A stretch of DNA of 33,867 bases. It comes from an uncultured Opitutales bacterium (GTDB lineage: Bacteria; Verrucomicrobiota; Verrucomicrobiia; Opitutales; Intestinicryptomonadaceae). The notes beneath the pieces are model-generated. The model had not been told where the DNA came from. It saw only the letters and a program-made list of their open reading frames with translations, and made no database searches. Shown here in pieces: positions 1 through 25,890 of this stretch. The stretch covers positions 1-33,867 of the forward strand of contig CALXLN010000046.1 of the NCBI GenBank assembly GCA_944389215.1, read 5' to 3'. A program made the position numbers and the translations under genes. Numbering within the stretch: position 1 is the stretch's first letter; the number at the start of each line of letters is the position of its first letter.

Positions 1-1536
1 AGGACCGTGGATTATGGCGTCGGAAATGTCTTTAGAGATTTCGCTTTTTCCGCCTCCTGAAACGGTTGCGGGCTTGTGGCAATAGACGCCTTCCTCGGCA
101 ATTCCCACGAGCCTCCATCTGCGGCTCTCATGCGGGCGGGACATCTCAACCTTGTATCCTGCCGGCGAGATATAAACTTGCCCGGGCAGAATTTTTATGG
201 ATTTTTTCACGCCGTCTTTGTCCCAGGAAACTGTTTGCGTTTTTAGGGAAAAATACGAGCTTTCGTTTACGTAGATTACGTCCGGATAATTTTTATCTCT
301 AGCCCATCCGTCTTCAAAGACTTCTATGTTGTCGCCGAGAATTTTCACTAAATCCGAAAATTTGCTTTTTGTGTTTGGCTCGTATGAAGATGAATAGAAG
401 TCTTCGCCCAAGTCGCGGCTGGAGAATGCGAGCGCGCCTCCGCTGTGTTCCTCTTCAGCCTGTCCGTATAGGTTGGCGGAAAAGCTAATTTGGGTTTTTA
501 TCTCTTTTTTGGAGTATCCGAAGTAATTGTCCGCGATTAGCGTTACTATCACTCCTTGCGGCGAACGCGCGGTGAGCTTGAAAGGCTTGCCGCCGTTGTA
601 AAGCTCGTTTTCGTCGGCCCAGCACATTCCGTCGCGCTTTTGTCGTTCCGTAGCGTCGGCGACATTGGGAAGCCCCAAGTCTTTTTTCTTCATGTTTACG
701 AGGTGCGGCGCCAGAATTATACATCCCGTATGTCCCGTCCAAGAATCGTAGCACAGCGACGAGTCGTTTTTGTGCAGATACGGATTGCCCGCGTTGCCGA
801 ATATGCTTTCTACAAAGTCCAGATTGCTTACCAGTCCTCCCGGGGCAAAAAACCGTATTTCCATACTTTTTTCTTTGCATTTATTCGGGATTGCCGGGCA
901 AACCGTTGGGCGCAAAAATAACGACACCCACATTTTTGCCTTTTCCTCCTGCGTTGAGGTAAATGGCAGCTCGAGAATTTCGTCCGGAGCCAAAAAGGCG
1001 TTCTTCAGCATATTTTTAAAAACGACTTTTGGAACTTCTATTTTATCCGCGGGAACCGGCAATCCGCCCTCGGCTATATGGAATACTCCGGCAGTAGTGC
1101 GGCGGTCGTTGTGCGGGTTATTCAGTATTCCCTGCCTGACGCGGTAGGACTGGACTATGCCGTTGTCGAAATCGTCTTTGTCTGGAGCTAAAGAAAGCAC
1201 TCTTGCCGTGCCGAATCTGTCCAAAATGAAAGTTGTGTGCGGCAGAGAAGGCAGCGGTTCGCGCTCGTCGAGAACGTCGTCGAGATACTGTTCTAAAAAT
1301 TTCATAATGCGCTCGTCGGGAGGGCAGTATGAAGTTTCGGCGGCGCGCGCGGAAAATTCGCGGTAGTTTTCAAGAAGCGGCTTTGCGAGTTTCAGGAGCG
1401 GGTATTGGTCTTCGCTCCCGAACACCGGCTTTCCTATCGCGGCAAGGCGCATATTCGCGTATTCCACAAGCGGTCTTCCCGCGACTTCGTTTTCCCCGTT
1501 AGCGGGGTTTATGCCAAGAGATGTTTTATAATCCAT
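1..1536 (-). CDS. Large conserved protein, N-terminal part only; candidate PPi-type phosphoenolpyruvate carboxykinase
   Basis: An open minus-strand frame starts at ATG 1536-1534 and runs 512 codons without a stop to the left edge, so the C-terminal part is missing. In-frame TAG and TAA codons lie upstream of this ATG. The protein opens MDYKTSLGINPANGENEVAG, has no signal peptide or membrane segments, and contains a Gly-rich phosphate-loop-like stretch TVSGGGKSEISK close to the window edge (about residues 489-500). Length and style fit the very long (about 1100 aa) PPi-dependent PEP carboxykinase family known from Propionibacterium and Entamoeba, which interconverts PEP plus CO2 plus Pi with oxaloacetate plus PPi. 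That assignment is from memory of the family and is tentative; the coding call is firm. A PEP carboxykinase would make metabolic sense beside the propionate genes at 17.7-24.1 kb, since it feeds the C4 branch. It is divergent from the esterase gene at 1799, with a 262-bp AT-rich spacer. Confidence 0.6.
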   Translation of the reverse strand, partial: MDYKTSLGINPANGENEVAGRPLVEYANMRLAAIGKPVFGSEDQYPLLKLAKPLLENYREFSARAAETSYCPPDERIMKFLEQYLDDVLDEREPLPSLPHTTFILDRFGTARVLSLAPDKDDFDNGIVQSYRVRQGILNNPHNDRRTTAGVFHIAEGGLPVPADKIEVPKVVFKNMLKNAFLAPDEILELPFTSTQEEKAKMWVSLFLRPTVCPAIPNKCKEKSMEIRFFAPGGLVSNLDFVESIFGNAGNPYLHKNDSSLCYDSWTGHTGCIILAPHLVNMKKKDLGLPNVADATERQKRDGMCWADENELYNGGKPFKLTARSPQGVIVTLIADNYFGYSKKEIKTQISFSANLYGQAEEEHSGGALAFSSRDLGEDFYSSSYEPNTKSKFSDLVKILGDNIEVFEDGWARDKNYPDVIYVNESSYFSLKTQTVSWDKDGVKKSIKILPGQVYISPAGYKVEMSRPHESRRWRLVGIAEEGVYCHKPATVSGGGKSEISKDISDAIIHGP

Positions 1537-5874: not shown

Positions 5875-6028
5875 AACTTTGCGGCGAAATATCGGCGTTG
5901 GTCTTTTGGGTGCGGTTTTTCTGCGCGCGCCGTTTTTCAAATATCGTCAAGAAAATTGCCTCTGCATTTTGGCGCGCCGTGTCCGGACATATCAAAAACC
6001 GTTTAAATCTTTTAGCGGAAGTTTGGGA

Positions 6029-6054
6029 ATATGCGCCGGAGCGCGTATTTTTTT
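6029..6054 (+). terminator. Intrinsic terminator after glnD
   Basis: An 8-bp stem (ATATGCGC / GCGCGTAT, one G-T pair) with a CGGA tetraloop is followed directly by T6. It lies between the convergent glnD and adenosyltransferase genes and faces the glnD direction. Confidence 0.8.
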
Positions 6055-6060
6055 GCTTTG

Positions 6061-6591
6061 TTACCCCTGTTTTTTTAGCGACTGCTGCGCCAAGAGCCAC
6101 AGCAGGTCTGAAAGCCGGTTGATGTATACCAACGGAAGCGCGCGCGGCAGCGGCTCAACGGAATTCAACTTCACAATTTCCCTTTCGGCGGCTCTGCAGC
6201 GCGCGCGCGCCATTTCGAGGCCTGCGTGCAGGTGGGATTCTCCGGAATATGTCCAACCGTCGAAAATTGTGGAATCGCGTTCTATTGAATCAATCTTGTC
6301 TTCAATTTCTTTTAAGTCTCCTTCGCCGATAAGGCGGAGTTTTTTTTCTTCCAACTTGTGGAAATCGGCGTTTGCGGTTGCCAGTTCTGTCATTAAAAAT
6401 ACGAGTTTTTCCTGCAAGTTTTTTATGAATGCGGCAAGTTCCCCCACCGCAAAAGACCGCGCCAAGCCCAGCGTGGCTGAGAAATCGTCGATTGCCCCGT
6501 ACGCGCATACGCGCTGGTCGCACTTTAAAACTTCCCTGCCGAACATTAATTTTGTTTTTCCGGCGTCTCCGGTTTTCGTGCTTATTCTCAT
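6061..6591 (-). CDS. pduO: PduO-type ATP:cob(I)alamin adenosyltransferase
   Basis: This enzyme transfers the adenosyl group of ATP to cob(I)alamin to make coenzyme B12. At 176 aa the length fits the PduO/MMAB family. The N-terminus carries the ATP-binding signature STKTGDAGKTKLMFGRE, then KCDQRVCAYGAIDDFSATLG. The C-terminal half shows RARCRAAEREIVKLN and YINRLSDLLWLLAQ, matching the conserved Arg-rich helix and the NRLSDLL motif of the family. Its ATG (6591-6589) shares the A of the argS stop codon (TAATG), so translation is probably coupled to argS. Coenzyme B12 is the cofactor of methylmalonyl-CoA mutase, the step just before the epimerase and decarboxylase encoded at 17.7-22.5 kb, so this gene probably supports the propionate pathway. 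No cobalamin riboswitch was recognised upstream of the pair. Confidence 0.93.
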   Translation of the reverse strand: MRISTKTGDAGKTKLMFGREVLKCDQRVCAYGAIDDFSATLGLARSFAVGELAAFIKNLQEKLVFLMTELATANADFHKLEEKKLRLIGEGDLKEIEDKIDSIERDSTIFDGWTYSGESHLHAGLEMARARCRAAEREIVKLNSVEPLPRALPLVYINRLSDLLWLLAQQSLKKQG

Positions 6592-8366
6592 TACATTTTC
6601 TCCAGAGGGGTTATTGCGAGCATTTTCAGCCCGGTCTCCAAAACGCGCAAAGTGCGCGCGCAGAGCATAAGGCGCTTTGCCATTACGGCTTCGTCGTCCA
6701 CTATCACTTTATCGGCATTATAGAACGAAGAGAAAAGTCCCGCCAATTCGTAAAGGTACGTGCACAAAAAGTGCGGGCGAAGTTCGGATAGTGTAAGCTC
6801 GAACACGGCGGGCAGCGCCAGAAGCTTGCGTGCCAAGGCAATTTCGCGCTCGGTTTCCAAGTCCGCGGCGCTCGCGGCGTAGTCTCCGTCGGGATTTTTT
6901 CCCGTTTTTCTAAATATAGAGTGGATTCTTGCGACTGCGTATAGTAGGTACGGGGCGGTGTTGCCGTCAAATGCCAGAAGCTTGTCCCATGAGAAAACGT
7001 AGTCGCTGGTTCGGTTTTGCGCCAAATCGGCGTATCTGAGCGCGGCAACCCCGACAGTGTTGGCGATTTTATCGGCCTCCTCCTCGGACATTTCAGGCGA
7101 TTTTTCCCTGACTATGGCTTTCGCGCGCGATACCGCTTCGTCCAACAGCGCGCGCAGCCTTATTGGTTCGCCGCTTTTGGTCTTAATTGCTTTGCCGTCT
7201 TCTCCGAGAATCGTGCCGAACCATACGTGGCGGAGTTCGGGAAGTTTATAGCCCATGGCGGAAAACCATTTTGCGGCCGTCATAAAAAGCTGTTGGAAGT
7301 GGTCTTGCTGCCTGCCGTCGGTTACGTAAACTATTTCTTCGGCTTTGAAGTGCTCCACTCTATAAAGAAGGGTTGCCAAATCAGTCGAGGCGTAGTTGGA
7401 TGCTCCGTCGCTCTTGCGGATTATAAATGGCTGCGTTTTAAAACGTTCGTGTTCGCGCAGAAATACTACTAGCGCTCCGAGGCTTTCTTCGGCGATGCCT
7501 GTTTTTATGAGTTCGTCGTATATTCTGCCAACTTTGTCGCGGTAGAAAGACTCACCCAGGGTTACGTCCACGGTAAGCCCCATGCGCTTATACATTTTTT
7601 CAAACGCAACCGTGCTCACTTTATTTATGGAGTTCCATAAAGCGACATTTTCGGGATCGCCGTTTTGAAGCTTTACAAGTTCAGCGCGCGCGGCGTCTGC
7701 GGCTTCTTTGCTCTCTTTAGCCAGGGCGCTGCCGCGTTTATACATTTGTTCCAAATCTTCTAGGGAGTTTTCGTTTGAAGGGTCTAGTTTGTATCCGCTC
7801 GTCTTTATTCCGTATATAAGGATTCCGAAATTCGTACCCCAGTCGCCTATGTGGTTGTCGCAAATTATATCCGCGCCGCAAAATTTAAGCAGGCGCTTGA
7901 TTGCCTCGCCTATTACCATGGGCCTCAGATGTCCTACATGCATTTGTTTTGCGGTGTTTGGGGAAGGATAGTCTATAACGACTTTCTTGCCGTTATAAAA
8001 TTTTCCGGCAGCGGACTTTAATTCGGCTTCGCCTTTAAATTTTGAAAGCCAAGCTTTGAGAAATTTCTTTGTAAGAGCGAAATTTATAAATCCCGGGCCG
8101 GCTATGGATATGTCTATGAGTTCGCCGTCGAAATCCGGCGACGCCTTAATTTCCTCTACGAGTTTTTGCGCAAGTGCGCGGGGATTCGTTTTTAAAGACT
8201 TGGCGCAGGCTAAAACGCCGTTTGCCTGAAAATCGCCGAAACGCGGGTCTGCAGGGCGTATTTGCGGGTCAAAATCGTCGGGAAATCCCGCTTTCTTTGC
8301 GCAGGATTTTACAAGAGAATCGATTTCCTTTGAAGGGTGAAACCAAATATCCATATTTTTATGCAA
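6591..8366 (-). CDS. argS: Arginyl-tRNA synthetase
   Basis: A class I aminoacyl-tRNA synthetase that charges tRNA-Arg. At 591 aa it is full length. It has an N-terminal Arg-tRNA-synthetase additional domain (residues 1-100), the HIGH-type motif QMHVGHLRPM (HVGH at 143-146), the segment GRQQDHFQQLF (351-361), a KMSKS-equivalent loop KAIKTKSGEPIRL (about 392-404), which is degenerate as in most ArgRS, and a C-terminal DALR anticodon-binding region entered by APYLLYAVARIHSIFRK (471-487). The listed start is MHKNMDIWFHPS; the second Met (codon at 8354) is an equally plausible start because many ArgRS begin close to a W-F-D/H-P-like segment. It is the first gene of a two-gene unit with the downstream cobalamin adenosyltransferase, overlapping by one base. 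Confidence 0.96.
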   Translation of the reverse strand: MHKNMDIWFHPSKEIDSLVKSCAKKAGFPDDFDPQIRPADPRFGDFQANGVLACAKSLKTNPRALAQKLVEEIKASPDFDGELIDISIAGPGFINFALTKKFLKAWLSKFKGEAELKSAAGKFYNGKKVVIDYPSPNTAKQMHVGHLRPMVIGEAIKRLLKFCGADIICDNHIGDWGTNFGILIYGIKTSGYKLDPSNENSLEDLEQMYKRGSALAKESKEAADAARAELVKLQNGDPENVALWNSINKVSTVAFEKMYKRMGLTVDVTLGESFYRDKVGRIYDELIKTGIAEESLGALVVFLREHERFKTQPFIIRKSDGASNYASTDLATLLYRVEHFKAEEIVYVTDGRQQDHFQQLFMTAAKWFSAMGYKLPELRHVWFGTILGEDGKAIKTKSGEPIRLRALLDEAVSRAKAIVREKSPEMSEEEADKIANTVGVAALRYADLAQNRTSDYVFSWDKLLAFDGNTAPYLLYAVARIHSIFRKTGKNPDGDYAASAADLETEREIALARKLLALPAVFELTLSELRPHFLCTYLYELAGLFSSFYNADKVIVDDEAVMAKRLMLCARTLRVLETGLKMLAITPLEKM

Positions 8367-8465: not shown

Positions 8466-8993
8466 CTACTTTTTTATTCCCAAGAACGCCTTGATGCGCG
8501 CCGACCAGTTGGCTTTTTCGGCTTCGGTAGGCTTGGGAGCTTCGGAGGTTTCATCCCACCATTGCGGAACTTCAGTGTCTAGCCCGCCGGACGTTCTCAC
8601 AATATAGACGATTTTCTTGACAACCTCTCTAATGTCTTCGGTTACTTTTGCCGCGAAGATTATGTCGATTTGGTGAATGTAATTTTCCGTTTGGCGCACC
8701 ATTGCAGGGATGTTTGTTACGGCGTACACATTGGAAAGGTTTTTTCTGAATACGTCGGTTGTAAACTTTGCCATCACGCGCCGTGCAAGAGCCTGTTTGC
8801 CTTCGCTTGGGGTGTCGAATATAAAAGTCAAAGATATATAATCCAGAGTTTCTATGTCTTGCGGTTGCGCAACTTTGCAGAGCCCGTCGAGTTCGCTTTC
8901 GCCGTTTTCTCCTATTTTGCAGAAATCAAAAAAAGCCAGGAACTTTTCCTGCTGCAAGATTTCCAATAATTTTCCGTCTTCTTGATTGTTCAT
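8466..8993 (-). CDS. Protein of unknown function, 175 aa
   Basis: I do not recognise the family. The product is a soluble, cytoplasmic-looking protein without a signal peptide or membrane segments. It opens MNNQEDGKLLEILQQEKFLA, contains alternating hydrophobic stretches that look like beta strands (ETLDYISLTFIFDT, ENYIHQIDIIFAAKV, REVVKKIVYIVRT), and has a Pro/Glu-rich, Trp-containing tail (QWWDETSEAPKPTEAEKANW) ending in a basic helix IKAFLGIKK. Coding status is supported by protein-like composition, a following terminator with its own U-tract, and divergence from the DUF456 gene across only 68 bp. Position next to argS does not suggest a role. Confidence 0.72.
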   Translation of the reverse strand: MNNQEDGKLLEILQQEKFLAFFDFCKIGENGESELDGLCKVAQPQDIETLDYISLTFIFDTPSEGKQALARRVMAKFTTDVFRKNLSNVYAVTNIPAMVRQTENYIHQIDIIFAAKVTEDIREVVKKIVYIVRTSGGLDTEVPQWWDETSEAPKPTEAEKANWSARIKAFLGIKK

Positions 8994-11349: not shown

Positions 11350-12870
11350 TTATTTGCGCTTGCGGTAAACCGCCAAGCCCAGCGCTAGCATTGCCGCAAA
11401 TATCGCGGCTGCGGCGGGTTCCGGGACGGCGACGGCGTTGAGCCAATATCCTCCGTCGTCTGCAGCTTCCAAATAGAATGAGCCGTCTTCGTATCCGTCG
11501 GCGTAAATGTTCTGCAGCTCGTTTTCGTCGCGGACTGTGCTTAGAACTTTTATTTTGTTATTTTCAAAGTTAACGATAACAAGTTTGTTGTTGCCAAGAA
11601 GCAAGCCCTGATTTGTGTCGCATGTGGTGGATATGCTGTCGAATATCAGAGTATTGCAGCCTTCGCCCAAAGTGAGAGTTACGTCGGAATAGTTGCTTCC
11701 ATTGTCGGTTCTAAAACAAATGCCCCTAAAGTGGTTGTCGGCATTTACGACAATTTCCGAACTGCCGTTTTCGGAGAGCCAAATTGTGGCGTATTGGGTA
11801 TCGGTGTCTTTCAATGCGTTGGATGTGTTTAGAATCAATTTGCCTCCGTTGCACATGCGCAGGTATCTGGAGCAGATAATGGAGCCTTCGGCGGAATTTA
11901 TCTCCAGCGTGCCGTACAACCTTATGAGAGTGTAGCCTTTTTCGAGTTTTATGGAACCCGTTTCGCCTACTTTCATGTAGCCGTTTGCGGATATTTGAAT
12001 GTTGTCGACCGTGGATATTGTGGGAATCGCGTTTACTTGGCCGTCAATGTACATTTCGCCATTTGTTCCGACTTTTATTGTGTTGTTTGCGGTAAGAGTT
12101 GCGCCCTCGTTAACGTTTAATACTCCGTATTCGACGGTCGCTTTGCCGACATCAAATGTGTTGTTGATATTAACAGTCGCATAGGCGCTTGAAAAGTCTT
12201 TCCATGTGTCGCCGTTTTTTGCGGTTACGGTTCCGTTGAAATTTACGATTCCGCGCTCAGGGGCTTTTGAGTATCCGAATACGCGCAGATTTTCCGTGGA
12301 GGTTAGGGTTGTAGGAGCTTCAAAATTTAATGTTTTTATCGATGTTCCATCTTTTGAGTTGCTGTACAAATCTATGACTGCAGTGGAAGTTCCAAGTGCT
12401 TTAGTGTCGGTAATGGAAATTACACCGTTTGCAAAGGTAAGCGTTTGGTCTGCAGTTGCGCTTGAGCCTCGCATTTCAATGGTGCCTTTCCCGCTCCATG
12501 TGCTGTTGTAGCCCATGGTTGCGATGTCGATTAAAAGACTGTGCTTTAACGGGTCGTAATCTTCGCCGTCTCCGCGCATTTCGACTATGCCGGTCGTCAG
12601 TCCGCTATTGGTGTAAACTCCCCTTGTGGTGTAATTGCCGTCTACAACAAGGCTTTTGGTATTCAAAGACACGGAATGTTCGTTTGTGAGCGGAAGCTCG
12701 GTTGCGTCTTGAACGGTGTATGGACTCCAGCTAACTAGCGTCTTCCAATAAGAGAGGTTTGACCAATATCCGTCGGTAGCCGGAGTTGCGGTAATATACT
12801 CCACAGCCTGTGCTTGAGTTGCAAAAAATGCCGCCGCCGCAAAAGAAATTGCTAAAAATTTTAAATTCAT
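11350..12870 (-). CDS. Exported PEP-CTERM-anchored surface protein, autotransporter-like beta-strand content
   Basis: The open frame extends to 12954, but I choose ATG 12870 because the protein then begins with a clean signal peptide, MNLKFLAISFAAAAFFATQA, cut near QAQA. This gives 506 aa. The C-terminus is a textbook PEP-CTERM sorting signal: VPEP (482-485), a hydrophobic segment AAAAIFAAMLALGLAVY and RKRK. Such tails are recognised by an exosortase, which removes them and attaches the protein to the cell surface; no exosortase is in this window. The body is Thr/Asn/Gly-rich with repeated beta-strand-like units (for example GSIKLEKGYTLIRLYGTLEI and GTIEMRGSSATADQTLTF), as in autotransporter-associated beta-helix proteins. 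The ligand or role is unknown. It is transcribed alone, between its own promoter-like region and a strong terminator. Confidence 0.88.
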   Translation of the reverse strand: MNLKFLAISFAAAAFFATQAQAVEYITATPATDGYWSNLSYWKTLVSWSPYTVQDATELPLTNEHSVSLNTKSLVVDGNYTTRGVYTNSGLTTGIVEMRGDGEDYDPLKHSLLIDIATMGYNSTWSGKGTIEMRGSSATADQTLTFANGVISITDTKALGTSTAVIDLYSNSKDGTSIKTLNFEAPTTLTSTENLRVFGYSKAPERGIVNFNGTVTAKNGDTWKDFSSAYATVNINNTFDVGKATVEYGVLNVNEGATLTANNTIKVGTNGEMYIDGQVNAIPTISTVDNIQISANGYMKVGETGSIKLEKGYTLIRLYGTLEINSAEGSIICSRYLRMCNGGKLILNTSNALKDTDTQYATIWLSENGSSEIVVNADNHFRGICFRTDNGSNYSDVTLTLGEGCNTLIFDSISTTCDTNQGLLLGNNKLVIVNFENNKIKVLSTVRDENELQNIYADGYEDGSFYLEAADDGGYWLNAVAVPEPAAAAIFAAMLALGLAVYRKRK

Positions 12871-12913
12871 AACTATTTTATGGTGAAAAACTAATTGTCT
12901 ACTAATAAACATG

Positions 12914-12942
12914 TTAAAATAGTATATTGGAAAAAATGTCAA
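12914..12942 (-). promoter_or_regulatory. Candidate promoter of the PEP-CTERM gene
   Basis: On the minus strand a perfect TTGACA (12942-12937) lies 17 bp before TTTTAA (12919-12914), about 45 bp ahead of the chosen start. The -35 is ideal and the -10 poor. Its position inside the longer reading frame supports the downstream start at 12870. Confidence 0.45.
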
Positions 12943-13258
12943 GTTTTGTCGCAACTTTCTTTATATTATTTTACTGCCGCAAATTTCAGCGGAAATATGT
13001 GGATTTTTTAGGCGTTTATATATAGCCAATAGGGGAGGAAGGTAAATGGATTTTATTGCGGATTTGCATTGTTGTAGGGAATTTTTATGACTTGCCGGTT
13101 TAAAAACAAAAAAAGCTTGCATACTTTTGCGCCGTGTATTTTATGCAACACTTTAAAAATTGCCGCACGGTGCGGTTATTTTTAATTGCAAACTATAACC
13201 TCAAACACAATAGAAAGAATCCCAGGTTCGCGCCAGCCGCGAATACGGAGCCATAAAT
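12943..13258 (+). other. Intergenic region and leader of rpsB
   Basis: The 316 bp between the divergent PEP-CTERM and rpsB genes contain no credible gene. A small hairpin CCGCA-CGG-TGCGG (13163-13175) followed by TTATTTTT lies about 75 bp before the rpsB start and could act as an attenuator or leader structure. Ribosomal protein S2 leaders are often autoregulated, but I do not recognise the known leader motif here. No clear promoter hexamers were identified. Confidence 0.4.
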
Positions 13259-17715: not shown

Positions 17716-18135
17716 ATGCTGAACAAAATAGATCACATCGGCGTCGCCGTAAAATCGATAGACGACGCAATTCCGTATTACGAAAACGCTCTCGGCTTAA
17801 AATGCGAAGGCATTGAAGAAGTCGCAGATCAAAAGGTGAAGACAGCATTCTTCTCGGTCGGCGGAGTCCATATCGAACTGCTCGAGCCGACCTCTCCCGA
17901 CAGCCCGATTGCAAAGTTCTTGGAAAAGAATCCGCATGGCGGCGTACACCATATAGCCTTCAACTGCAAAGACATTCGCCAGGCGCTCGCCCACGCGAAA
18001 GAAGCTGGAGTTGGGCTGATTAACGAAGAACCCAAGATTGGCGCGCACGCAAAGCAAATCGCATTTTTGCATCCCAAATTTACCAAGGGTGTCTTGACGG
18101 AATTTTGTCAGGACGGCGAGTGCAAGTGCAGTTAA
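17716..18135 (+). CDS. mce: Methylmalonyl-CoA epimerase
   Basis: Interconverts (S)- and (R)-methylmalonyl-CoA, linking methylmalonyl-CoA mutase with the decarboxylase encoded next. The 139-aa length is typical. It belongs to the vicinal oxygen chelate (glyoxalase-like) fold with paired beta-alpha-beta-beta-beta units: NKIDHIGVAVKSIDDAIPYY at the start, GGVHIELLEPTSPDSPIAKF in the middle, HGGVHHIAFNCKDI (74-87), and GVLTEFCQ at the end. Likely metal ligands are His7, Glu54, His79 and Glu129, judged from the family pattern. It is the first gene of the cluster, 40 bp upstream of the decarboxylase alpha subunit, and ends in a Cys-rich tail (CQDGECKCS) that is unusual but harmless-looking. Confidence 0.96.
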   Translation: MLNKIDHIGVAVKSIDDAIPYYENALGLKCEGIEEVADQKVKTAFFSVGGVHIELLEPTSPDSPIAKFLEKNPHGGVHHIAFNCKDIRQALAHAKEAGVGLINEEPKIGAHAKQIAFLHPKFTKGVLTEFCQDGECKCS

Positions 18136-18175: not shown

Positions 18176-19738
18176 ATGGCAATATCAAAAAAATCGATGG
18201 ACGAACTCATCAGACGCCGCGAGGAGGCTCTTAACGCCGGCGGCAAGGCGAAGCTCGACGCTCGCCGCGCGAAGGGCCTTATGACCGCGCGCGACAGAAT
18301 CGAGTCGCTGTTTGACTCGGGTTCATTTCAGGAATTCGGAATGCACGTGCAGCACAACTGCCACAACTTTGGGATGGACAAAAAAGTTCTCCCTACTGAC
18401 GGAATAGTCAGCGGAATCGGGTTGGTAGGCGGCCGTCCTGTTGCGGCGTTTAGTCAAGACTTTACGGTGTCAGGAGGTTCGCTGGGGTCAAATCACGCTA
18501 AGAAAATTGTCGATTTGATGAAATTCGCCGGCAAAAACGGCATGCCCGTCATCGGCGTAAACGACAGCGGCGGCGCGCGCATTCAAGAGGGCGTCGAGTC
18601 TCTGGCGGGATACGGCCAGATTTTCTACCAGAACGTGGCGCTTTCGGGTGTCGTGCCCCAGATTTCCATCATAGCCGGTCCTTGCGCGGGAGGCGCCGCC
18701 TACAGCCCTGCGCTTATGGACTTTATAATTATGACGGAAAAGAATTCCAACCTCTTTATCTGCGGTCCGCAAGTCATCAAGGCGGCGACCGGAGAAGAGG
18801 CTTCGGTTGAGATGTTCGCAACCGCGGCGGCGCACGCTTCGGTTTCCGGCAACATCCATTTGGTTGCGAAGGACGACAGGCATGCGTTGGAGCTTGCTGC
18901 AAAATTGCTTTCCTACCTGCCTTCAAACAATATGCAGGAGCCTCCGCACGATTTCTCGAAGCCGTACGAAAAGACTTACGACCCGGCTCTCAACGAGCTC
19001 GTTCCCGAAAGCGCCAAAGAGGCTCTCGACGTAAAGAAGGTTATAGAGCATATAGTCGACGGGGGAGAATTCTTTGAAATTCAGGCGCAGTTTGCGCGCA
19101 ACATAGTCGTGGGTTTTGCGAGAATAGAGGGCATAGTCGTAGGCATAATCGCCAACCAGCCCAACTACAAAGCTGGATGTCTGGACATTGACGCGTCCGA
19201 CAAAGCTTCGCGCTTTATCCGCACTTGCAACGTATTTAATGTCCCGATTGTAAATCTGGTTGACGTTCCCGGCTTTATGCCCGGCTTGGCGCAGGAGCGC
19301 GGAGGAATTATTCGCCACGGGGCAAAGATGCTTTTTGCGTACGCGTCGGCGACTGTCCCGAAGATAACTTTAATTATGCGCAAGGCTTACGGCGGCGCAT
19401 ATTTGGCGATGTGCTGCGTCGATATGGGCGCGGATATGGTGTTCGCATGGCCTACTGCGGAAATTGCGGTAATGGGCGCCAAGGGCGCGGTCAATGTTCT
19501 TTACGGCAAGGAACTCAAGGCAATAGAGGATCCCGCCAAGCGCGCGGAACTTGCCGCAAAGTACAGCCACGAATACAGCGAGAAGTTTGAGAGCCCGTAT
19601 CAGGCTGCGAGCAAGGGCATGATTACCGACGTAATCGAGCCTGCGGAGACTCGCGGGGCGTTGGCTATGGCATTGCGCGCGACTTTGTCCAAGCGCGAAA
19701 CCCGCCTGCCCAAGAAGCACGGCAACATTCCCATGTAA
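18176..19738 (+). CDS. mmdA: Methylmalonyl-CoA decarboxylase alpha subunit (carboxyltransferase)
   Basis: This cytoplasmic carboxyltransferase moves the carboxyl group from (R)-methylmalonyl-CoA to the biotin of the carrier protein, producing propionyl-CoA. At 520 aa it is full length. It contains the two crotonase-like halves of acyl-CoA carboxyltransferases: the first with GGSLGSNHAKKIVDLM, NDSGGARIQEG (129-139) and GPCAGGAAYSPA (168-179); the second with NIVVGFARIEG, LVDVPGFMPGLAQERGGIIRHGA, MRKAYGGAYLAMCCVDMGADMVFAWPTAEIAVMGAKGAV and a C-terminal ESPYQAASKGMITDVIEP. Neighbouring genes for the carrier and membrane subunits mark it as part of the Na+-pump complex rather than the biosynthetic propionyl-CoA carboxylase beta subunit, although sequence alone would allow either. 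Confidence 0.95.
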   Translation: MAISKKSMDELIRRREEALNAGGKAKLDARRAKGLMTARDRIESLFDSGSFQEFGMHVQHNCHNFGMDKKVLPTDGIVSGIGLVGGRPVAAFSQDFTVSGGSLGSNHAKKIVDLMKFAGKNGMPVIGVNDSGGARIQEGVESLAGYGQIFYQNVALSGVVPQISIIAGPCAGGAAYSPALMDFIIMTEKNSNLFICGPQVIKAATGEEASVEMFATAAAHASVSGNIHLVAKDDRHALELAAKLLSYLPSNNMQEPPHDFSKPYEKTYDPALNELVPESAKEALDVKKVIEHIVDGGEFFEIQAQFARNIVVGFARIEGIVVGIIANQPNYKAGCLDIDASDKASRFIRTCNVFNVPIVNLVDVPGFMPGLAQERGGIIRHGAKMLFAYASATVPKITLIMRKAYGGAYLAMCCVDMGADMVFAWPTAEIAVMGAKGAVNVLYGKELKAIEDPAKRAELAAKYSHEYSEKFESPYQAASKGMITDVIEPAETRGALAMALRATLSKRETRLPKKHGNIPM

Positions 19739-20403: not shown

Positions 20404-20811
20404 ATGAAAAAATTACGCATTACAGTTGACGGAAAAACATATGAAGTTGAAGTCGAAGTTGTCGGCTCTAGAATAGCGTCTGTTGCGCCTGTGTCCGCAG
20501 CACCCGCACCCGCAGTTGCGGCTGCTCCCGCGGCTGCTCCCGCTCCGGCTCCGGCTCCGGTTGCGGCACCCGCTCCTGCTGCTCCCGCGGCGGCTGGCGC
20601 TAACGACGTCGTATGCCCTCTGGCTGCGGTGGTCGTAAATGTTGCCGTAAAGGAAGGGCAGCAAGTGAAAGAAGGCGATTTGCTCGTAATGCTCGAAGCC
20701 ATGAAGATGAACACGCCCGTAAACGCGTTAAAGAGCGGCACTGTTTCCAAAATTTACGTTTCGGCCGGACAGAGTGTTCAAGAAGGCACTCCGTTAATCA
20801 GCCTCTCGTAA
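20404..20811 (+). CDS. mmdC: Biotin carboxyl carrier subunit of the decarboxylase
   Basis: The 135-aa carrier shuttles CO2 on biotin between the carboxyltransferase and the membrane subunit. It has an N-terminal segment (1-25, KKLRITVDGKTYEVEVEVVG), a flexible Ala/Pro linker (28-65), and a biotinyl domain from about 66 to the end. The biotinylation motif EAMKM sits at 98-102 with Lys101 as the attachment site, and the second half of the barrel reads GTVSKIYVSAGQSVQEGTPLISL. The usual APMPG entry to the domain is CPLAA here. The low-complexity linker gives a repetitive GC-rich stretch in the DNA at about 20490-20600. Related symbols in the literature are bccP, gcdC or mmdC. Confidence 0.95.
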   Translation: MKKLRITVDGKTYEVEVEVVGSRIASVAPVSAAPAPAVAAAPAAAPAPAPAPVAAPAPAAPAAAGANDVVCPLAAVVVNVAVKEGQQVKEGDLLVMLEAMKMNTPVNALKSGTVSKIYVSAGQSVQEGTPLISLS

Positions 20812-20861: not shown

Positions 20862-20925
20862 TTGGGGTATTTCCGCGTACGGCGTATTGAAAGCGGAAAA
20901 TTATAACGATTTAATAAAACAAGCT

Positions 20926-22509
20926 ATGTGGCAGAGTTTAATGGATTTAGCGCTCGATACGGGTTTTTTTTACGTAGATTGGCGCATGATAATAATGTGG
21001 ATTGTGGTGGCGATTCTGTTCTACTTGGCGGTCGCGCGCCAATTTGAGCCGCTATTGCTCGTTCCGATTGCCTTTGGTGCGCTTTTGGCAAACCTTCCCA
21101 CGGAAGGCGTCGTCAATAAGCCAGGCGGATATTTAATTTCTCCAACCGGCGGAGTCGTCTGCAACGTATTTGTAAAATCGGGCGATAAGGCTTTTGTGCC
21201 GAGAGTTGTCAGGCAAATTCCGGATAAAATTTCCGACATTATAAGCACTCCGGAATCCGCGCAGGCGGATGTTTCCAAGTATTTTGCCGAACTGGAGAAG
21301 GTTACTTCCGCGGAGGCGCGCAAGGATACTTTTCTCAAGGCAAAGGGAATCCCCGATTTAATCGCGATTGTGCGCCCTGCGCACGCGGAGCCCAAAACTG
21401 AACACGACAAGGCTCTTGCGAACATTATGATTTCCGTCAATTTCAAGGGAAAAGTTTTAAAGTTGACGGGCAAGGACATGCTGGTTTGGGCAAAGTCTTC
21501 CGGCGATGTTGCCGAAGTCTGCGCCGTTGAGGGGCAAAAAGTTGAAAACGGCCAAAAGTTGGTCGACGTGTACAGCGCGCGTACCGGCGGATTGTATTAT
21601 TACATCCAGCAGGGCGTGTTGCTTGAAATCTTTCCGCCTCTCATTTTCTTGGGCGTAGGCGCTTTGACGGACTTCGGCCCCCTTATTGCAAATCCTAAGA
21701 TGTTGCTTTTGGGCGGGGCAGCGCAATTTGGCGTGTTCGCGACTTTCATGGGGGCTATTTTCCTGGGCTTTACTTCGCAAGAGGCGGCTTCAATCGGTAT
21801 TATTGGAGGTGCGGACGGCCCGACTTCGATATTTATATCCAATAAGCTTGCTCCGCATTTACTGGCGCCTATTGCCGTTGCCGCATACAGTTATATGGCT
21901 CTGGTCCCAATTATACAGCCGCCTATTATGCGCGCGTTGACAACCATGCACGAACGCAAGATTAAGATGAAGAGTTTGCGCAAAGTTTCGCGCCTGGAAA
22001 AGCTAATTTTCGCGGTCGTGGTAACTATATTCTGCATACTGCTGGTTCCCGACGTATCGGCGCTTATAGGCATGCTTATGCTCGGAAACTTTATCCGCGA
22101 GTGCGGAGTTTGCGACCGCCTCAGCAAGGCCGCGCAGAACGAGACCATAAATATCGTTACGGTATTCCTGGGAACTTCCGTCGGAATAACAATGACTGGC
22201 GACAGATTTATCCGCGTGGAGACTCTTTCGATTCTCGCTCTCGGCGTCGTGGCGTTCGGGTTCTCGACGGCTGCGGGAGTTGTAATGGCTAAGGTTATGA
22301 ATCTTTTCCTGAAGGAAAAAATCAATCCTCTCATAGGGGCTGCGGGCGTTTCGGCGGTTCCGATGGCGGCTCGCGTGGCTCAAGTCGAGGGCACTAAGGC
22401 CGATCCTTCAAACTTCCTGCTCATGCACGCCATGGGGCCGAATGTCGCGGGAGTCATAGGCACTGCGATGGTCGCGGGTTTCTTCATAGCCACGCTGACA
22501 TCGCATTAA
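20926..22509 (+). CDS. mmdB: Na+-pumping methylmalonyl-CoA decarboxylase beta subunit with large insertion
   Basis: This integral membrane subunit decarboxylates carboxybiotin and exports Na+. Recognisable parts are TGGLYYYIQQGVLLEIFPPL, FLGVGALTDFGPLIANPK, GIIGGADGPTSIFISNKL with the essential Asp of GGADGPT, GTSVGITMTGDRF, and the C-terminal NPLIGAAGVSAVPMAARVAQ segment that carries Na+-binding residues in Klebsiella OadB. With start ATG 20926 it has 527 aa, whereas OadB/MmdB proteins are usually about 370-435 aa. The excess is an insertion between the first hydrophobic segments and GGLYYYIQQG (about 21100-21585). A TTG at 20887 could add 13 residues, and ATG 20941 is also possible; no ribosome-binding site decides. 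Oxaloacetate or glutaconyl-CoA pumps share the same beta family; the adjacent mce favours methylmalonyl-CoA. Confidence 0.93.
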   Translation: MWQSLMDLALDTGFFYVDWRMIIMWIVVAILFYLAVARQFEPLLLVPIAFGALLANLPTEGVVNKPGGYLISPTGGVVCNVFVKSGDKAFVPRVVRQIPDKISDIISTPESAQADVSKYFAELEKVTSAEARKDTFLKAKGIPDLIAIVRPAHAEPKTEHDKALANIMISVNFKGKVLKLTGKDMLVWAKSSGDVAEVCAVEGQKVENGQKLVDVYSARTGGLYYYIQQGVLLEIFPPLIFLGVGALTDFGPLIANPKMLLLGGAAQFGVFATFMGAIFLGFTSQEAASIGIIGGADGPTSIFISNKLAPHLLAPIAVAAYSYMALVPIIQPPIMRALTTMHERKIKMKSLRKVSRLEKLIFAVVVTIFCILLVPDVSALIGMLMLGNFIRECGVCDRLSKAAQNETINIVTVFLGTSVGITMTGDRFIRVETLSILALGVVAFGFSTAAGVVMAKVMNLFLKEKINPLIGAAGVSAVPMAARVAQVEGTKADPSNFLLMHAMGPNVAGVIGTAMVAGFFIATLTSH

Positions 22510-22598: not shown

Positions 22599-24083
22599 AT
22601 GAGCTACAATTATATTACTGCCGAAGAGGCCGCAAGCCTCATTCAAAACGGTCAACAGATTGCGTTTAGCGGATTCACTCCTGCGGGCGCCACAAAAGTA
22701 ATTCCCTCTGCGATTGCTAAGCGCGCCGAAGAGGAACATGCCGCCGGGCGCGAATTTAAAATCAACGCGGTTACCGGAGCTTCGACGGGCGATTCATGCG
22801 ACGGCGTGCTTTCCCGCGCGCAAGCTCTCAACTATCGCGCGCCTTACCAGTCCAACGCAGATCTTCGCGCCGGGGCTAACAAGAACGTCATCCATTTTAC
22901 GGACCTTCACTTGTCGATGATGCCCCAATACATGAACTACGGCTTCTTGGGCAAGTTTGATTGGGCTATTGTAGAGGCCGCAGACGTTAGCGACAACGGC
23001 GAGATTCTTCTTACAACATCCGTTGGAATATCTCCGACAGGGCTCAAGCTTGCCGACAAAATTCTTATAGAACTCAACGAGTACCACTCAAAAGAATTGC
23101 GCGGTTTCCACGACATTTACGAGTGCGCAAATCCTCCGTTCCGCCGCGAAATTCCGATATATTCCGCAGGCGACCGCATAGGTTCGGAGGTTGTAAAAGT
23201 AGATCCCAAAAAGATTGTCGGAATAGTCAGGACAAATAAGGCCGACGAGGTAAAACCATTTAAGCCAAGCGATCCAATTACAGAAAAAATCGGGCAGAAC
23301 GTGGCGAACTTCCTTGCTTCAGAGATGAAGGCAGGCAGGATTCCTTCGTCTTTTCTCCCAATCCAAAGCGGCGTAGGAAACATCGCCAACGCGGTTCTCG
23401 GCGCTATGGGAAACAATCCGGATATTCCAGCTTTCTCTATGTATTCCGAAGTTTTGCAGGATTCTGTAATAAATCTTATAGAGGAGGGCAGAATTAGCTG
23501 CGCTAGCGCTACATCCCTTACGGTTACCCCGGAAAAGATTCAGGAAATTTATGCAAATCCGAAGTTCTTCCGCGAAAGGGTTGTTTTGCGTCCGCAGGAA
23601 ATTTCCAACAGCCCTGAGATTGCCCGTCGCATAGGTATAATTTCCATCAATACCGCAATCGAGGTTGACTTGTCCGGCAATGTCAACAGTTCTCACATAA
23701 TGGGAAAGAACCTTATGAACGGTATCGGCGGCAGCGGAGACTTTACAAGAGCGGCATATACTTCAATATACACGACTCCATCGGTAGCCAAGGGAGGCTG
23801 CATAAGCGCTATTGTTCCCAATGTTTCCCACTGCGACCACACGGAGCACAGCGTAAACGTGGTTGTGTCGGAATACGGCGTTGCCGATTTGCGCTGCAAG
23901 ACTCCTTACGAGCGCGCACAGATTCTTATAGAAAATTGCGCCCACCCCGATTACAGGGACATGCTGCGCAAATTCATAAAGGATGCTCCCATGGGGCACA
24001 CTCCTCAAACTCTGTCGAACGCATACTGCTTCCACGAGGCCTTTATAACCCAGGGCGACATGCGCAAGGCGGTCATAGACTAA
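22599..24083 (+). CDS. Acetyl-CoA hydrolase/transferase family; probable propionyl-CoA:succinate CoA-transferase
   Basis: A 494-aa cytoplasmic enzyme of CoA-transferase family I (Cat1/ScpC/acetyl-CoA hydrolase group). Landmarks are the N-terminal AFSGFTPAGATKVIP, the loop GASTGDSCDGVLSRA, the segment MYSEVLQDSVINLI with catalytic Glu284, GSGDFTRAAYTSIYTTPS, and PNVSHCDHTEHSVNVVVSEYGVADLR near the C-terminus. In the Wood-Werkman type pathway this enzyme moves CoA from propionyl-CoA to succinate, releasing propionate and regenerating succinyl-CoA for the mutase. Acetate as alternative acceptor or donor is common in the family and cannot be excluded. It follows the decarboxylase genes in the same direction but behind a terminator, so it may be transcribed partly on its own. 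Confidence 0.9.
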   Translation: MSYNYITAEEAASLIQNGQQIAFSGFTPAGATKVIPSAIAKRAEEEHAAGREFKINAVTGASTGDSCDGVLSRAQALNYRAPYQSNADLRAGANKNVIHFTDLHLSMMPQYMNYGFLGKFDWAIVEAADVSDNGEILLTTSVGISPTGLKLADKILIELNEYHSKELRGFHDIYECANPPFRREIPIYSAGDRIGSEVVKVDPKKIVGIVRTNKADEVKPFKPSDPITEKIGQNVANFLASEMKAGRIPSSFLPIQSGVGNIANAVLGAMGNNPDIPAFSMYSEVLQDSVINLIEEGRISCASATSLTVTPEKIQEIYANPKFFRERVVLRPQEISNSPEIARRIGIISINTAIEVDLSGNVNSSHIMGKNLMNGIGGSGDFTRAAYTSIYTTPSVAKGGCISAIVPNVSHCDHTEHSVNVVVSEYGVADLRCKTPYERAQILIENCAHPDYRDMLRKFIKDAPMGHTPQTLSNAYCFHEAFITQGDMRKAVID

Positions 24084-24334: not shown

Positions 24335-25162
24335 TTATTTTGCCTTTTCTGCGGGTTGCGTAGCGGAGGATTTTGAGACATTTTTTTGCGCCTCGATTTT
24401 TGCCAGTTCTTCCGGGGTTAAAATGAGGTAGAGCTTTGACTTTGAAGTTTCAACGACATAGTCTTTTTCACCTTTTATTCCGTATTTTCCGCGTATTTTT
24501 TCGGTGTTTTCCTTAAGGGCTTTTTCGCTGTTGGCGAGCTGCTGGGAGATTGTCATTTGCTCGTCGGCGTCGGTTGTCTTTGAAAGCTTTTGGCGCAGCT
24601 GGTCTATTTCTATTTTTCGAGTTAGGGAAAACCCCAAGACGCGTTGAAGCTCTTCGTTTTCTTTGACTCCGGAAATAGTCATATGGCGATAGTACGAGGT
24701 GTTGTCGCGTTCGGAAATCAGCATGGGATCAAGTTCTTTTCCGTCTTCGCTTCGCAGGCTGGAAAGTTCCTGCTTTGTCAGCGGCGTGCAAATGTTCGAC
24801 TCTAGAAAAACAAGGCGGTATTGGCGGCTTGACGCAAATGCGTAAGCCTTTTGCATGGCTTTGTCGTTGACCTCAAACTCGTCTTCAAGCTGTTTTAATT
24901 TAGTTTCCAATTCTTTCTTTTTATTCTCATCTTTTTCTTCTCCGACTTTTGCTTTTACAGCATTGATGATTTGCGCGTGTCTGCGCATGATTTCCAAATT
25001 GCGCTGAAACGTGGAATTTTGCTCGGGAGTGTTAAATTCTCTCACCAGCATATATGCGGAATTGCCTACTTTTGTTATGTCTCCTACTTTTTCTTCGGCG
25101 AAGACTGTTTGCATGGCGGCTAGCATGGCCGCGAAAATGATGGTAAAAGTTTTAAGTTTCAT
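24335..25162 (-). CDS. Exported coiled-coil protein of unknown function, 275 aa
   Basis: I do not recognise the family. A signal peptide MKLKTFTIIFAAMLAAMQTVFA is followed by a globular start (EEKVGDITKVGNSAYMLVRE), then highly charged helical stretches likely to form coiled coils (about 64-98, with KAKVGEEKDENKKKELETKL; and about 178-222, with KIEIDQLRQKLSKTTDADEQ). A segment in between holds a single Cys (SNICTPLTKQEL). The C-terminus is Lys/Ala-rich and unstructured. It probably resides in the periplasm. It is 17 bp downstream of another exported unknown protein, so the two form one transcript ended by the terminator at 24243. The overall layout recalls periplasmic chaperone-like or envelope scaffolding proteins, but no motif supports a specific role. 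Confidence 0.75.
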   Translation of the reverse strand: MKLKTFTIIFAAMLAAMQTVFAEEKVGDITKVGNSAYMLVREFNTPEQNSTFQRNLEIMRRHAQIINAVKAKVGEEKDENKKKELETKLKQLEDEFEVNDKAMQKAYAFASSRQYRLVFLESNICTPLTKQELSSLRSEDGKELDPMLISERDNTSYYRHMTISGVKENEELQRVLGFSLTRKIEIDQLRQKLSKTTDADEQMTISQQLANSEKALKENTEKIRGKYGIKGEKDYVVETSKSKLYLILTPEELAKIEAQKNVSKSSATQPAEKAK

Positions 25163-25179: not shown

Positions 25180-25890
25180 CTATTTCTTAGAATCTCGTTT
25201 TTTTGAATCTTGTTTTTTCATTCCGGAACTGTTGCGCTTTTCTTCGTTGCCCGAAAAACTTACGCCTTCTCCGTCGATAATGTAGGTTTTCCCCGCGACG
25301 CCTATTTTGTTGTCTAATCCGTTTATGGTTACGGACGACGAATCGCCGCCTTTGGAGGCTTCAAGCGGCTTGCCTGTATAGTCGGATAGGAATTTTTCGT
25401 AAAAGAGATTTAGTTCGGTTGCGTCGTTTACAATAAATTCAAGCGTGTGCGAATGCGTAGTTGCGGGATAATCTTTGCTGACTTTTACTTGGGAGAGATC
25501 CGCAGTGGAGTAGTTTGCTTCTGCGGCTTTGATTGCATTGGTTACCGATAGGGGTATTTGCACTCCCGCTGGAATATTTTGCGGAATTTGGGAGTTCGCA
25601 AGGCCGGCAATATCGGTAGCGGAAATCATCTTGACGTTGTATATTCTAACTTTTGAAGTAGCGCCGAGCAAATCTATGGATACTTCGGTAACGGCCAGCG
25701 GGCCGACAAGATATTCCTGTTTGGATATAGTGGCTATCCAATCTGCAATGCCGTAGAAAGAAGTCCCGTCCGGAAATTCTATGCCGAAGGTTTTATTGTT
25801 CTTTATGGATTTTGTATCTATAGTAAGAGCGTTTGCCGTCGAGAATGATAAGGCAAAAGCAAAGCAAACAAGAAACTTGAAAATTTTCAT
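25180..25890 (-). CDS. Exported protein of unknown function, 236 aa
   Basis: The family is not recognised. A signal peptide MKIFKFLVCFAFALSFSTANA precedes a mixed beta-rich domain (for example VGPLAVTEVSIDLLGATSKV, and HSHTLEFIVNDATELNLFYE). A segment SVTINGLDNKIGVAGKTYIIDGEGVSF leads into a short, strongly basic, repetitive tail (KKQDSKKRDSKK, essentially two copies of K-K-x-D-S). There is no Cys after the signal, so it is not a lipoprotein. It is the first gene of a pair with the coiled-coil exported protein (17-bp gap) and lies divergent from the ABC transporter gene at 25973 across an 82-bp promoter region, which hints at, but does not prove, a common envelope function. Confidence 0.75.
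   Translation of the reverse strand: MKIFKFLVCFAFALSFSTANALTIDTKSIKNNKTFGIEFPDGTSFYGIADWIATISKQEYLVGPLAVTEVSIDLLGATSKVRIYNVKMISATDIAGLANSQIPQNIPAGVQIPLSVTNAIKAAEANYSTADLSQVKVSKDYPATTHSHTLEFIVNDATELNLFYEKFLSDYTGKPLEASKGGDSSSVTINGLDNKIGVAGKTYIIDGEGVSFSGNEEKRNSSGMKKQDSKKRDSKK

Follow-up and report, generated by a model that had tools for sequence, protein, structure and literature searches.

The window analyzed here, a stretch of 33,867 nucleotides from contig C46 of an uncultured Opitutales bacterium, opens with a 512-codon frame on the minus strand (positions 1 to 1536) that begins with an ATG at 1536 and is still open at base 1. Since the window starts at base 1 of the contig and the frame is open there, the contig stops before the gene does. 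The source assembly comprises 2.40 Mb in 136 contigs and is 80.3% complete. Based on the frame itself, on matches to protein chains of solved structure, and on relatives, we assigned the frame to the N-terminal 512 residues of a predicted PPi-dependent phosphoenolpyruvate (PEP) carboxykinase (PPi-PEPCK, EC 4.1.1.38). In support of the start codon, MDYxxxLGI stands at the same place in relatives such as those at loci L022, L023, L025, L027, and L029. A first-pass annotation had described, without giving the strand, a large frame running off the window, with an SGGGKSE motif and no signal peptide. This description holds: the 512 codons are open at base 1, the N-terminus MDYKTSLGIN is, as judged by eye, unlike a signal peptide, and SGGGKSE occupies residues 493–499 of the translation (positions 40 to 60, minus strand), within a block, TVSGGGKSE, that is invariant in an alignment of 19 rows. 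This motif is a putative phosphate loop.

Comparison of the fragment with all solved chains returned two distinct sequences only, with no third match up to an E value of 10. Residues 23–511 aligned to residues 9–490 of the PPi-dependent PEPCK 8e1u_A (phmmer, E = 1.6e-163), and residues 46–511 aligned to residues 43–508 of AiPEPCK, 6k31_A (E = 1.8e-152). The structures 8e1u and 6k31 presumably originate from Propionibacterium freudenreichii and Actinomyces israelii, respectively. The window copy differs from 8e1u in being cut after residue 512, and it differs from AiPEPCK in that the match begins only at residue 46 and in that C486 of the window protein corresponds to an alanine. The full-length copy in G008 (locus L022), a member of the same genus, matched both solved PPi-PEPCKs at an E value of 0 and nearly end to end, the matches covering residues 25–1146 and 19–1145 of its 1148 residues. 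The E value of the fragment to a solved PPi-PEPCK, together with its 66–75% identity to copies in the genus, excludes chance as an explanation for the frame.

In the copies of Pfam-A and NCBIfam that were used, the fragment had no match over any cut-off, and neither did the full-length relative L022. Since L022 is unmatched yet aligns at an E value of 0 to both solved enzymes, the missing domain match reflects the libraries and not the protein, and these copies seem to lack models for the PPi-PEPCK lobes. The ATP- and GTP-PEPCK models PF01293 and PF00821 were not matched by the window protein in Pfam up to an E value of 1; the sole Pfam match up to that value, HAAS, scored 15 bits against a cut-off of 27 and was dismissed as chance. 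The 512 residues were also modeled with AlphaFold2 from a two-row alignment; the model had a mean pLDDT of 31.3 and was discarded as useless. The lack of any Pfam or NCBIfam model over its cut-off would fit some other large P-loop enzyme that merely resembles PEPCK; at the level of sequence family, this idea is refuted by the strength of the match to 8e1u_A and by the nearly end-to-end matches of the full-length relative to both solved enzymes, and we give it a negligible probability.

The first-pass guess of a PPi-type PEPCK is supported by the matches to the two solved enzymes and by the size of the full-length relatives, about 1150 amino acids, in keeping with the figure of about 1100 given in that annotation. 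Judged from its sequence, the gene product is, with a probability of roughly 93%, a PPi-dependent phosphoenolpyruvate carboxykinase (also called PEP carboxytransphosphorylase; EC 4.1.1.38), and it belongs to an already described enzyme family. The complete protein probably has about 1150 amino acids, of which the assembly has the first 512 residues only.

We searched the source assembly with the full-length relative for the C-terminal half, and in this 80.3% complete assembly only query residues 1–510 were found, on C46. The missing 3′ half is most simply read as an assembly gap, because about a fifth of the genome is missing. The same observation could be explained by a broken copy, with the true end or a rearrangement of the gene lying at the contig end and GTP-PEPCK doing the work, and the PPi-PEPCK copy of G016 does contain an in-frame stop. 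Against this, the frame is still open where the contig itself stops, at base 1, the assembly is incomplete and in many pieces, the 512 residues contain no stop and keep the conserved blocks, and the PPi-PEPCK matches of three other genomes (G012, G015, and G021) are likewise spread over two contigs. We therefore regard a broken copy as very improbable and an assembly gap as the preferred reading.

PPi-PEPCK matches were found in 32 of the 54 genomes searched, which cover the genus, family, and order and include the source genome; ten of the 14 genus members carry one. The window protein is 66–75% identical to the copies of nine other carrier genomes of the genus; the copy of G012 is split into two pieces, one of which is 63% identical to the window protein. 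The aligned full-length relatives, 18 in all, are 1147–1183 amino acids long except that of G001, at 1217, whereas the source copy is cut at 512; these lengths use the first ATG of each frame, so that some starts may be too early, and the start in G001 is uncertain. In the 19 aligned rows, 107 of the 512 positions of the window protein are invariant, among them CHKP at 486–489 and TVSGGGKSE at 491–499 (19/19 rows each). The latter block is also conserved in both solved enzymes, and HKPATVSGGGKSEISK is kept by 8e1u_A and 6k31_A alike. One genus member, G010 (one contig, 95% complete), gave no candidate in any of ten genome searches; its sequence is perhaps not usable, and its lack of a PPi-PEPCK match is thus uninformative. 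A further relative, 51% identical, was found in a Polyangiaceae MAG by a scan with six short peptide patterns.

A copy on contig C135 of G040 (L028), a genome of another family (f23), is 70% identical to the window protein, compared with 66–67% for two copies from the same genus. In the tree, L028 falls with nine same-genus rows (94/92, not starred), in a 100/100 branch in which all other rows come from the source family. This placement would reflect gene transfer or a stray contig.

The PPi-PEPCK gene lies about 16 kb from a run of propionate genes that spans 17.7 to 24.1 kb of the window, all on the plus strand. The run begins with a methylmalonyl-CoA epimerase (17716 to 18135; TIGR03081, 163 bits against a cut-off of 115) and an MmdA-like carboxyltransferase of the methylmalonyl-CoA decarboxylase alpha or transcarboxylase 12S type (18176 to 19738; PF01039, 603 bits; TIGR01117, 731 bits, below its cut-off of 999). 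These are followed by a biotin carrier protein (20404 to 20811; PF00364, 67 bits against 22; NF047903, 105 bits, below its cut-off of 200), a Na+-transporting decarboxylase beta subunit (20887 to 22509; PF03977, 509 bits; TIGR01109, 510 bits against 191), and a CoA-transferase of the succinate/acetate/butyrate type (22599 to 24083; NF053666, TIGR03458, and NF053853, all above cut-off). The beta subunit is 540 amino acids long from a TTG start, compared with about 350–433 for the models and the solved chain, and its N-terminal part holds a long insert, since only residues 229–534 match the solved oxaloacetate decarboxylase beta chain. The CoA-transferase scored 795 against 740 with the butyryl-CoA:acetate model, 710 against 659 with the succinate model, and 572 against 500 with the succinyl-CoA:acetate model; with all three over cut-off, its substrates are not readable from the models. 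Elsewhere in the window, five open frames had no Pfam match at E 1e-5: 5879 to 6670 on the plus strand, and 8466 to 8993, 11350 to 12954, 24335 to 25162, and 25180 to 25890 on the minus strand.

The source assembly contains one frame resembling the small subunit of methylmalonyl-CoA mutase, which runs off the end of contig C58 and scores below the NCBIfam cut-off. It was the sole mutase match, leaving one of the two subunits of this enzyme without a match in the assembly. A 487-amino-acid protein with HMGL-like and PYC_OADA domains is also encoded; it is over the cut-off only for pyruvate carboxylase subunit B, scores 430 bits with both the pyruvate carboxylase beta and the transcarboxylase 5S chains, and has no biotin domain at E 0.001. 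This 5S-like protein may be part of either a transcarboxylase or a pyruvate carboxylase/decarboxylase. The gene set resembles the Wood-Werkman set of Propionibacterium in having the epimerase, the MmdA/12S-like protein, the biotin carrier, and the CoA-transferase in the window, with the mutase subunit and the 5S-like protein encoded outside it, but it is unlike that set in including a decarboxylase beta subunit of the Na+-pump type in the gene run.

PPi-PEPCK is not the sole enzyme at the PEP/oxaloacetate node of the source genome, which also encodes a GTP-PEPCK (938 bits against an NCBIfam cut-off of 504). The two enzymes share the same PEP/oxaloacetate chemistry. The window protein differs from GTP-PEPCK (PF00821/NF003253) in matching no Pfam PEPCK model, and the phosphoryl carrier differs. 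GTP-PEPCK is also present in 27 of the 32 PPi-PEPCK carriers (association p = 0.19), leaving unsupported the idea that PPi-PEPCK replaces it. In the review PMC8100219, the PEP/oxaloacetate chemistry is described as common to both enzymes and most organisms with PPi-PEPCK are said to have an ATP/GTP-PEPCK as well, which would make the pair in the source genome a usual one. No ATP-PEPCK was over cut-off in any of the 54 genomes, and PEP carboxylase was found in none of the 14 genus members and had a match in ten of the 54 genomes overall. PPDK_N matches occur in 12 of the 14 genus members, with none in the source assembly. Three genomes of 0.9 Mb (G024, G042, and G046; 93–95% complete) have PPi-PEPCK and no match to GTP-PEPCK, PEP carboxylase, or PYC_OADA. 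PPi-PEPCK is thus the only one found there of four families of enzymes joining C3 and C4 compounds, and ATP-PEPCK was not found in them either.

For pyrophosphate itself, the source genome encodes a membrane pyrophosphatase (H+-PPase). No family I soluble pyrophosphatase was found in the 14 genus members, and the DHHA2 domain typical of family II pyrophosphatases is present in ten of them; neither was found in the 80.3% complete source assembly. The proposal that the genus lacks a soluble pyrophosphatase and is forced to save PPi was rejected on account of DHHA2, and with this domain in ten of 14 members PPi need not be saved.

Co-occurrence was examined across the 54 genomes in 12 unadjusted tests, on genomes that are related and of uneven completeness. 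With these limits, PPi-PEPCK was present in 20 of 24 genomes with a mutase domain versus 12 of 30 without (Fisher p = 0.002), and, outside the source family (f1), in 7 of 8 versus 11 of 27 (p = 0.04). It was likewise present in 28 of 37 genomes with a PYC_OADA domain versus 4 of 17 without (p = 0.0007), and in 14 of 20 versus 4 of 15 outside f1 (p = 0.018). No association at p 0.05 was found with GTP-PEPCK, PEP carboxylase, membrane pyrophosphatase (p = 1.0 and 0.44), or DHHA2. The mutase domain occurs without PPi-PEPCK in three genus members (G004, G009, and G013), and PPi-PEPCK occurs without a mutase match in G006 (86% complete), indicating that neither requires the other.

The gene neighborhood is not conserved: none of the window's next eight frames recurs in the 21 loci compared, with genes modeled simply by the longest ATG frame and matches counted at E 1e-15 and half coverage. 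Several flanking genes of PPi-PEPCK are common to G008 and G005 and to G014 and G016, one each is common to G001 and G003 and to G011 and G006, and a handful of further matches, single ones or at roughly 30% identity, also occur. GTP-PEPCK lies close to and divergent from PPi-PEPCK in two of the 27 genomes with both, namely on contig C55 of G045 and contig C20 of G020 (L050 and L051), which belong to one family; in G045, the two genes are about 1.1 kb apart with a 252-amino-acid frame between them. In G005 they share a contig at a distance of about 81 kb.

The PPi-PEPCK family interconverts PEP plus CO2 plus Pi and oxaloacetate plus PPi, and the window enzyme should do the same. In a fermenting cell, we infer that it would run mainly towards oxaloacetate, which would feed a succinate–methylmalonyl-CoA–propionate route, and that the membrane pyrophosphatase would use part of the PPi formed. 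This would leave the GTP-PEPCK of the same genome available for another direction or condition. A supply of oxaloacetate for propionate is a plausible role, which may save energy in keeping with the propionate module. Against a link to propionate stand the three mutase-bearing genus members that lack PPi-PEPCK, the distance of about 16 kb between the genes, and the unconserved neighborhood. For propionibacteria, the genome paper PMC7650540 proposes that a PPi-driven proton pump could use the PPi from PPi-PEPCK and PPDK; by analogy, the pairing of PPi-PEPCK with a PPi-driven pump may be possible in the source lineage. PMC3534718 (2012) gives the enzyme as absent from four genomes, those of Propionibacterium acidipropionici, P. 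acnes, P. freudenreichii, and M. phosphovorus; the PPi-PEPCK gene was named later, by Chiba et al. in 2015 (as cited in PMC8100219 and PMC10441589).

The enzyme might instead work mainly towards PEP, consuming oxaloacetate and PPi in a gluconeogenic role. PEPCK reactions are reversible according to PMC8100219, and a PEP-forming role would suit G024, G042, and G046, where PPi-PEPCK stands alone among the four families. The GTP-PEPCK of the source genome could serve that direction, and PPi inhibits the enzyme of Propionibacterium shermanii, which also needs a divalent metal (both from PMC8100219); we consider a mainly PEP-forming enzyme unlikely. Returning to the oxaloacetate-forming direction, a more extended version has PPi-PEPCK as the main net carboxylation feeding a Na+-pumping methylmalonyl-CoA propionate fermentation in this lineage, with the membrane pyrophosphatase turning its PPi into an ion gradient, and as an enzyme kept in the three reduced relatives as the only one joining C3 and C4 compounds. 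We put this combined scheme forward tentatively, and doubt that it holds in full.

Because the copies of Pfam and NCBIfam used here miss PPi-PEPCK, the enzyme is easily left unnamed, even though 32 of the 54 genomes searched carry it. Should the carboxylating step of the propionate route in these bacteria be PPi-PEPCK, growth-yield models must count PPi as a product.
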